Shown: piece by piece, positions 33,807 through 37,657 of the stretch
Position numbering within the stretch: position 1 is the first letter of the stretch
How the letters are laid out: each line of letters opens with the position of its first letter
Assembly: GCA_022760475.1 (NCBI GenBank)
Contig: JALEFZ010000089.1
Span: 186,001 to 250,000 of the forward strand
Reading direction: 5' to 3'
Length of the DNA: 64,000 nt
Origin: Bacteroidia bacterium
GTDB taxonomy: Bacteria > Bacteroidota > Bacteroidia > J057
Notes under the pieces: model-generated
The model's input: only the letters and a program-made list of their open reading frames with translations
Database searches by the model: none
Told to the model about the DNA's origin: nothing
Position numbers and translations under genes: made by a program

Positions 33807-34733
33807 ATGATCAACTACAATTCAAAAAACTGGTTTGAAGCCATTTCCCATTTCAAATCTAGCTACGTTATCCGTAGAACCATGCGGATGACACTGGTGG
33901 TAGGCCTGATTGCGGCCGGACTGGGAGCTATCCAGGAGTTTTTAATGACAGACTTCAAAATTGGCATTGAACCATCCATTTTTTCTTTATTGGGTTTGTT
34001 ATTGAGCTTGTTGCTGGTTTTCCGTCTAAACTCTGCTTATGACAGATGGTGGGAAGGAAGAAAGCAATGGGGAGCTCTGATCAATCATACCCGTGGCTTA
34101 GCAGTCCTATGGCATGGAAAACTGGGCCATAAGGATATCCAGAATAGAACATTTTTTGCCAAAGGAATTTCGGCTTATGTATTGGCCTTGAGTGATCACC
34201 TACGAGATAAGAGCAACCACTCACTGGTAGAAATGTATTCTGAAGAGTCTCCTGAATCTATTAGAACCTATGCCCATGTACCTAATAAGATCGTTCGAGA
34301 TATGTATGAGCGCACCGAGATGCTTTATAAGGACGGCTTTATTGACGGCTTTCAACTCAATCAGGTTCAGCCCGAACTTCAGGAGTTTCTGAATATTCAG
34401 GGAGCTTGCGAGCGTATCAAAGCTACTCCCATTCCATTTGCTCACAACTTCTTTATCAAGTTGTTTGTCCTGACATATTGTGCCTTGCTTCCTTTCGTTT
34501 TGATTCCTGTGATTGGTTGGTGGGCTATATTGATGACGATGTTTGTGAGTTATGCTTTGATAGGAATTGAATTCATCTCAGTAGAGATCGAAGAACCTTT
34601 TGGCCTGGACTGCAACGATCTTCCGACTCACAACCTTGCTGTGAAAATCGAAAAGAATGTGCATGAAATCCTGGAAGTAGAACTACTTGACACCGAGAAG
34701 GAAGTCAAGCAGCAATACATCGTTATCAAATAA
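33807..34733 (+). CDS. Bestrophin family anion channel
   Basis: This 308-residue protein matches the bacterial bestrophin (YneE-type) family. It begins with NWFEAISHFKSSYVIRRT, has a hydrophobic hairpin, then LLLVFRLNSAYDRWWEGRKQWGALINHTRGLA, the family hallmark. It ends with a C-terminal part holding EEPFGLDCNDLPTHNL. Four membrane segments are expected, in pentameric channels conducting anions (some bacterial relatives prefer cations). It is a single gene next to an MFS carrier on the opposite strand. No regulator is adjacent. Confidence 0.92.
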   Translation: MINYNSKNWFEAISHFKSSYVIRRTMRMTLVVGLIAAGLGAIQEFLMTDFKIGIEPSIFSLLGLLLSLLLVFRLNSAYDRWWEGRKQWGALINHTRGLAVLWHGKLGHKDIQNRTFFAKGISAYVLALSDHLRDKSNHSLVEMYSEESPESIRTYAHVPNKIVRDMYERTEMLYKDGFIDGFQLNQVQPELQEFLNIQGACERIKATPIPFAHNFFIKLFVLTYCALLPFVLIPVIGWWAILMTMFVSYALIGIEFISVEIEEPFGLDCNDLPTHNLAVKIEKNVHEILEVELLDTEKEVKQQYIVIK

Positions 34734-36135: not shown

Positions 36136-37242
36136 ATGGATAAGAAGGATAAGTCTTTGAATTTTTGGGGTGTTAAGTTTTTCCCAAGACGAATCAGGAG
36201 GAAAGACTCAGGCTTAATTGTACTGGATCTGATCATGTTGATCCTTGTGAACCTCAATGTTCTGCTATTGGTGTTTTACTGGATTTATCTGAATCCATTT
36301 TTCAGGGAATTTGTAGCAGAAAATATCCCTCCCTTACACCAAATTCTTCAGCCCGTTTTTGAAAGTTTTTTCGCGATAGATACTGTTTTTTTGGTCATTT
36401 ATCTCATCGAGCTTGCTTTCAGGTGGATATTGGCCATATATAGGAAGACTTATCACCGCTGGTTTTTTTACCCATTTGTTCACTGGTACGATGTATTAGG
36501 GTGTATACCGATTGGATCTTTCAGGTTTCTGCGAATTCTTCGTGTATTTGCGCTAATAACACGTCTTCAGCGACTTGATATACTTGATTTCCGAAATACC
36601 TACCTTTATTCCAGATATTTGAAGTATCGTGGGGTAGTGGTAGAAGAAATATCTGATGGTGTGGTGGTGAATGTATTGCAAGGAATGCAAAATGAAATCA
36701 AAAAAGGCCTACCCATTACAGAAAAGCTGCTTCATGAAGTTATTTTGCCTTATAAACCTGTTTTGGTTCAGTGGCTTTCCCGACGTCTCAGGACAGTAAC
36801 TACAGAGTCCTATGGTGTTTATAAGGATGACCTTCAGGATTATGTGTATGATAAGATTAAGACAGCTGTAGATCAAAACAAGGAAATCAGGCAGATCGAG
36901 GCTGTTCCTGTACTTGGGAAGCAGGTTTCAGGTATGTTGGAGCATGCCATTCAGGATATTGTATTTCAAGTGGTCAGTGGTCTTGTGCAAGACATGGCTG
37001 GAAGAGATCATTCCCGATTTTTGGATGAAATCTCTGGATTGGTTCTTGAAACAGTCCTTCATGAGGAAAAAAGGGATGAACATGACCCACTGAATGAAAT
37101 TTTGAGCCGTTTTGCGCTTGATGTGCTGGAGGTGATCAAGGAGCAGGTAGCGGTTCAGGAATGGAAGGAAAGACATCAAAGGGAAAAAGAGGTTGAAGAG
37201 GAAATAAAGCAAGACAAAAAATCAACAGCAAATGCAGAATAG
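36136..37242 (+). CDS. Voltage-sensor-like membrane protein without a pore domain
   Basis: This 368-residue protein has four predicted membrane segments in residues 27-147 resembling S1-S4 of voltage-gated channels. S2 has a Glu at 92 and Arg at 96, S3 has Asp119 in HWYDVLG, and S4 (about 128-147) has Arg130, Arg133, Arg136, Arg143 and Arg146, the first three at every third position. After S4 no S5-pore-S6 follows; residues 150-368 are hydrophilic and helical with a charged tail. This is the layout of voltage-sensor-only proteins, not of a channel. Function unknown. Its stop overlaps the DoxX gene start by 11 bases. Confidence 0.7.
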   Translation: MDKKDKSLNFWGVKFFPRRIRRKDSGLIVLDLIMLILVNLNVLLLVFYWIYLNPFFREFVAENIPPLHQILQPVFESFFAIDTVFLVIYLIELAFRWILAIYRKTYHRWFFYPFVHWYDVLGCIPIGSFRFLRILRVFALITRLQRLDILDFRNTYLYSRYLKYRGVVVEEISDGVVVNVLQGMQNEIKKGLPITEKLLHEVILPYKPVLVQWLSRRLRTVTTESYGVYKDDLQDYVYDKIKTAVDQNKEIRQIEAVPVLGKQVSGMLEHAIQDIVFQVVSGLVQDMAGRDHSRFLDEISGLVLETVLHEEKRDEHDPLNEILSRFALDVLEVIKEQVAVQEWKERHQREKEVEEEIKQDKKSTANAE

Positions 37243-37657
37243 AGCCGTTGGAGTCTGGATTATGAGAATGGTATTAGGCTTAATTTTTTTCATGCAAGGA
37301 TATGGTAAAATCTTTACCATAGGAATCGAACAACTTTATGAAAGTGCCTTTGCTGCATTTGAAAAAACATTTCTCCCCAATTGGCTGCTTTGGTTTACTG
37401 CATCCTTTACCAGTTTTGCTGAACTTTTATGTGGGCTTATGTTAATCTTGGGAATAGGTCGAAAATGGGCTTTGTATATACTGGGGGTAGTGCTCATTGT
37501 GGTAAGTTTTGGACACGGCCTTCAATCTCCGATCTGGGACCTTGGACATGTTTTTCCTAGACTTGTCCTGGTAGGAACATTGCTAGTTATCCCTGAGGAT
37601 TGGGATCGGATTCATTTGGATAATATTCTTAGTCGAAAGTCTGTGTCGAGCAAGTAG
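37232..37657 (+). CDS. DoxX family membrane protein
   Basis: The 141-residue protein has four membrane segments and the DoxX pattern: RMVLGLIFFMQGYGKI near the N-terminus, FTSFAELLCGLMLILGIG in the middle, and LGHVFPRLVLVGTLLVIP at the end. DoxX relatives include quinone-linked oxidoreductase subunits and redox-stress membrane proteins; activity here is unproven. Its ATG lies 11 bases inside the end of the voltage-sensor-like gene, so the two are translationally coupled and may act together in the inner membrane. Confidence 0.88.
   Translation: MQNRAVGVWIMRMVLGLIFFMQGYGKIFTIGIEQLYESAFAAFEKTFLPNWLLWFTASFTSFAELLCGLMLILGIGRKWALYILGVVLIVVSFGHGLQSPIWDLGHVFPRLVLVGTLLVIPEDWDRIHLDNILSRKSVSSK

Follow-up and report, generated by a model that had tools for sequence, protein, structure and literature searches.

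Pore-less voltage sensors are known from eukaryotes, in the form of Hv1, VSP and TMEM266 (PMC13095418), and a 2023 review holds that every known prokaryotic voltage sensor has a pore (PMC10377628). Since prokaryotic voltage sensors are held to be pore-bearing throughout, a pore-less bacterial family matters, and the one described here, as read from its sequences and structural models, contradicts the statement of the review. Its representative is a 368-residue protein encoded in the window, by which we mean the whole 64,000-nucleotide stretch of DNA analysed, from a Bacteroidia bacterium (GenBank assembly GCA_022760475.1, contig JALEFZ010000089.1, positions 186,001 to 250,000). No paper on this sensor family was found among the open-access papers searched.

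The sensor gene occupies positions 36136–37242 of the window on the forward strand, which also holds all window features given below with coordinates, and is present in one copy in this genome. Its assignment as a pore-less voltage-sensor-domain protein relies on the open reading frame, the Pfam Ion_trans match and a family of 83 members. It is followed by a gene for a DoxX family membrane protein of 141 residues (37232–37657), for which the Pfam DoxX score of 40.1 bits (E 6e-10) passes the cut-off of 23.6. The two reading frames overlap by 11 bases, as their coordinates show and as had been stated in the preliminary description of this DNA. For the DoxX start at 37232 there is support from the nearest relative (52% identical), in which the start methionine aligns one residue later. 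Upstream of the sensor gene lies a divergent MFS transporter gene and downstream of the DoxX gene an opposed GNAT acetyltransferase gene, so that sensor and DoxX probably form a two-gene operon here, in the window's genome only. A bestrophin-type gene (putative anion channel, 33807–34733) is found 1.4 kb upstream of the sensor on the same strand, with the opposed MFS gene in between, and is probably unrelated to it.

When about 85,000 species genomes were scanned, 209 relatives were obtained, and 80 of them were retained. These, the window copy and two proteins from related genomes, one of which comes from a locus already in the scan, make up the 83 aligned proteins. Members occur in Bacteroidota, Rhodothermota, Gammaproteobacteria, Desulfobacterota and Calditrichota, and many come from halophilic or marine organisms. 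The named ones belong mostly to Halomonadaceae, Alcanivoracaceae, Salinibacteraceae, Desulfohalobiaceae, Calditrichota and marine or hypersaline metagenome bins. Within the window's phylum the family is present in 12 of 394 sampled genomes, the window's own included, and within its order in one of 22, namely the window's own; for Gammaproteobacteria, the class of locus L041, 11 of 369 sampled genomes give matches, two of them weak. The Bacteroidota rows are scattered over the family tree (seven changes), a pattern that is compatible with transfer and is no proof of it, and the window copy forms a long branch. Some genomes carry two or more family copies or fragments (G452, with locus L009; G449, with L007 and L011). 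A distant, shorter subfamily of about 265 residues, with a pore-less S1–S4 region, the S4 arginines and a related tail, is found in two gammaproteobacterial genomes (L154 and L157); a further match (L155) was set aside, as it is a short match in an open frame of 94 residues only.

An AlphaFold2 model of the protein was built on a 58-row alignment and has a mean pLDDT of 84.6 and a pTM of 0.55, with values of about 77–84 for S3–S4. The model together with the conservation places S1 at residues 22–52 (36199–36291), S2 at residues 78–103 (36367–36444), S3 at residues 106–125 (36451–36510), with a kinked helix modelled at 106–122, and S4 at residues 127–146 (36514–36573). S3 lies inside the family signature WFFYPFVHWYDVLGCIP, and the block WFFYPFVHWYDxLGCIP is near-invariant across the family. 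Along S4, arginines are found at every third position: Arg130 (codon start 36523) in 82 of the 83 aligned members, and Arg133 (36532) and Arg136 (36541) in all of them. These are the only basic residues between positions 126 and 142, and they are followed by Arg143 and Arg146, at which nearly all members have arginine or lysine. Their acidic partners are Asp82 (82/83) and Glu92 (Asp or Glu in 83/83) in S2 and Asp119 in S3 (81/83, Glu in the other two). The preliminary description had picked out both the arginine spacing and the acids that partner it from S2 and S3, and these residues are retained in all or nearly all of the 83 members. The refuting condition set there, an arginine spacing that homologues do not share, therefore does not apply. 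Retention of this charge pattern at 30–40% overall identity would imply that it has a function.

S2 further contains Tyr89, Arg96 and Trp97. Residue 89 corresponds to the charge-transfer position, which is Phe in 70 members, Tyr in ten, the window copy included, and Leu in three. In S2 the family thus has the pattern D82-x6-F/Y89-x2-E92-x3-R/G96, and its S3 carries the motif D-x5-P. An acid–aromatic–acid–Arg arrangement in S2 and a D-x5-P motif in S3 are typical of voltage-gated channels, and similar patterns are seen in pore-bearing channels of related genomes. In S1, Asp31 and Asn41 are near-invariant, the latter being Asn in 80 of the 83 members. The link between S3 and S4 is unusually short. 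Asp119 and Arg130 are 11 residues apart in 57 of 58 rows, so that S3b appears to be missing and the S3–S4 loop nearly absent, and S4 may therefore have little room for movement. The window copy deviates at two near-invariant sites, with Tyr48 (36277–36279) in place of the outer acid of S1, which is Asp or Glu in 79 of 83 members, and Gly175 (36658–36660) where 82 of 83 have Arg, and it may thus be functionally changed.

Ion_trans is the only Pfam family seen in the protein. The match covers residues 30–149 and profile positions 4–117 of 241 (E 0.014) and stays, at 15 bits, under the curated cut-off of 25; at E values up to 1, Ion_trans matches 38 of 58 members, the best at 7.9e-6. Searches of NCBIfam, PADLOC and PHROGs returned no match for the sensor protein, and in the PDB sequence search no channel was matched with either the single protein or the family profile as query. 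When the family S1–S4 alignment was compared by hhalign with true, pore-bearing Ion_trans channels from related genomes, the score was 53 (P = 6e-8), and the alignment spans S1 to S4 and then ends. Reversal of either side gave P values of 0.007–0.027, DoxX gave 0.2–0.33 and none of 60 locally shuffled versions scored above 33. Residues 23–149 of the model superpose on the voltage sensors of GORK, AKT1 and SKOR over 105–108 residues at 3.0–3.3 Å (VIA-align, Z 7.9–8.9), the best match being GORK (106 residues, 3.1 Å, Z 8.9), and nearly all of the best 50 VIA-align rows are voltage-gated channels, Kv and NavMs included. Foldseek with the same model gave no significant match (best E 0.74), its first row being a bacterial sodium channel. 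For a helical bundle, a Z score close to 9 is modest and alone is no proof of the fold; taken with the profile test, it makes a convincing case. The voltage-sensor-like fold suggested in the preliminary description agrees with these results, and it is well supported by profile and model that S1–S4 is a voltage-sensor domain homologous to those of the voltage-gated channel superfamily. In one K+ channel from a gammaproteobacterium, which has the filter TVGYGD (L160:1501-1782), the S3 segment reads DLLACIPAGLF and is much like the family signature; this channel is a candidate for the type from which the sensor arose.

No S5–pore loop–S6 arrangement was found after S4, in that this part of the protein contains neither a strongly hydrophobic segment nor a pore signature and is not matched by Ion_trans. 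What follows is an all-helical C-terminal region (residues 156–367, 36601–37236) that is expected to be cytoplasmic, with modelled helices of the soluble type at residues 156–189, 194–247, 261–288, 290–312, 318–339 and 342–367. The maximum 19-residue hydropathy mean is 1.11 in this tail, 2.74 in S1 and 2.10 in S2, and is by itself not decisive on the pore because S3 and S4 themselves reach only 0.9–1.2. The family's own tail does not match the Ion_trans channels either (hhalign P 0.27). The absence of a pore from the 368-residue protein, already noted in the preliminary description, is well supported, with the Ion_trans match ending at residue 149. The same description had a soluble C-terminal two thirds; the soluble helical nature stands, and the share comes to about 58%.

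Several tail positions are conserved like those of the sensor (Tyr164, Glu170, Glu171, Ser173, Asp174, Arg175, Pro258, Gly261, Lys335 and Trp343). In particular, the helix after S4 with the family motif EExSDR is as conserved as S4 itself; in the window copy this motif reads EEISDG (residues 170–175, 36643–36660), with Gly in place of Arg. The tail thus forms a separate domain and is no decayed pore. No enzyme was recognised in it, and when it was used alone as a structure query it matched nothing but generic long-helix proteins (best Z 6.8, with an r.m.s.d. of 15 Å), such that no known fold stands out among the matches of the modelled tail and its fold is not shown to be new. DUF445 was considered as a relative of the tail and rejected, with weak matches in three of 58 members and a profile comparison P of 0.037. 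In the window copy, the tail contains no cysteine, and thus no CX5R phosphatase motif, and Pfam matches no phosphatase there.

The preliminary description had coupled the sensor to DoxX, as a possible voltage- or pH-responsive partner for a redox-linked membrane protein. A DoxX profile made from nine relatives was run on 104 family loci with a total of 0.92 Mb. The window's own region accounts for two of these loci, and the profile found only the window's own DoxX reading frame and none in the 102 others. Some genomes have a DoxX relative and no sensor, others the sensor and no DoxX relative, and the two co-occur no more than expected by chance (P about 0.22). As a family property the pairing is contradicted by these sequences, and any partnership of DoxX with the sensor would be limited to the window's lineage. 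Neighbours differ between taxonomic groups, with a thioesterase and a short-chain fatty-acid transporter in Halomonadaceae and a HemN-like protein in Salinibacter relatives. No neighbour common to the whole family was found, and therefore none identifies the output. In nine gammaproteobacterial loci (L018, 885–4868; L009, L010, L016, L017, L028, L029, L035 and L038) a cyclic-di-GMP gene of about 1,300 residues with DUF1631–GGDEF–EAL architecture lies directly upstream of the sensor on the same strand; the architecture comes from a Pfam run on the L018 copy, and the eight others were assigned by sequence clustering. A clade-specific link from membrane potential to cyclic-di-GMP is possible.

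We favour real voltage sensing with a cytoplasmic helical output, to which we assign a probability of roughly 0.55 on the basis of alignment and model. The three S4 arginines would sit among the acids of S2 and S3 and the aromatic constriction in S2 and, by analogy with established voltage-sensor work, a change in membrane potential would shift S4. This shift might then reach the tail through helix 156–189 with its EExSDR motif, because that helix follows S4 where an S4–S5 linker would be, and more tentatively the cytoplasmic helical region might respond by altering its assembly or binding a partner. The chances are about even that these proteins are the first prokaryotic non-channel voltage sensors, that is, membrane-potential receptors that signal via a helical output in several phyla and mostly in marine or halophilic bacteria. 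Alternatively, the fold may have been kept only to anchor the protein in the membrane, or as a bundle that senses a ligand or lipid, with the arginines holding it together, and channels exist whose voltage-sensor-like domain senses no voltage. The S3–S4 turn, very short and fixed at 11 residues, would suit such a role, and the WFFYPFVHWYD block, aromatic and invariant, points to a unit that is rigid or faces the lipid. However, the charge partners, the S2 aromatic residue and the i, i+3 arginines are all kept together, and a pure anchor needs none of them; we consider this explanation unlikely, although it deserves to be taken seriously.

The protein might itself be a voltage-gated conductance for protons or another ion, formed by the S1–S4 bundle as in Hv1, whose architecture of S1–S4 plus post-S4 helices and no pore is alike. 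Hv1 has the S4 motif RxWRxxR with a conserved tryptophan and a selectivity-filter aspartate (Asp112) in S1. The position of this tryptophan, residue 132, is Leu in 81 of 83 members and Phe in two; at the position that motif spacing, and not a direct alignment, equates with Asp112, S1 has Asn41, as do several pore-bearing channels of related genomes. We consider a conductance improbable. Other Ion_trans channels are encoded in the genome (L112 and L123), on which the protein could dock as a regulatory subunit, but no channel gene is linked to the sensor in the loci read and presumably no S5-type interface remains, so that we give this option very little weight. Just as hard to credit is a sensor–DoxX redox pair with our protein as the sensor half: it has the 11-base overlap in the window's genome in its favour and the 102 DoxX-free loci and chance-level co-occurrence against it.

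If the family does sense voltage, bacteria would own a dedicated membrane-potential receptor, and the reading of membrane potential by cells during electrical signalling, under salt stress and when energy is limited would become directly testable. Such sensing would also inform the question of whether pore-less sensors such as Hv1, VSP and TMEM266 arose in eukaryotes alone, and simple sensors with a soluble tail could serve as voltage indicators.

Compared with known systems, the family shares with the eukaryotic Hv1/VSOP and TMEM266 a pore-less S1–S4 sensor, arginines at every third S4 residue and a helical segment after S4. It differs from them in the lack of the Hv1 S4 tryptophan, in an S1 asparagine at the probable place of the Hv1 aspartate, in a conserved helical tail of about 200 residues, in having almost no S3–S4 loop and in being bacterial. 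As in Ci-VSP, the sensor is joined via a post-S4 helix to a cytoplasmic domain, but this domain is predicted to be all-helical and in the window copy is devoid of a PTEN-like CX5R phosphatase. Bacterial six-transmembrane channels of the Kv/Nav type (for example L112, L114, L122 and L160) have the same S2 acid–Phe–acid–Arg pattern, the S3 D-x5-P motif and the S4 arginines at every third position, and some have the S1 asparagine; the family lacks their S5, selectivity filter and S6, has a shorter S3b–S4 link and carries a different C-terminus. The closest structural matches are the plant K+ channels GORK, AKT1 and SKOR, in which the sensor fold is alike over some 106 residues at roughly 3.1 Å and is accompanied by a pore and by cyclic-nucleotide-binding or ankyrin domains that the bacterial family does without.
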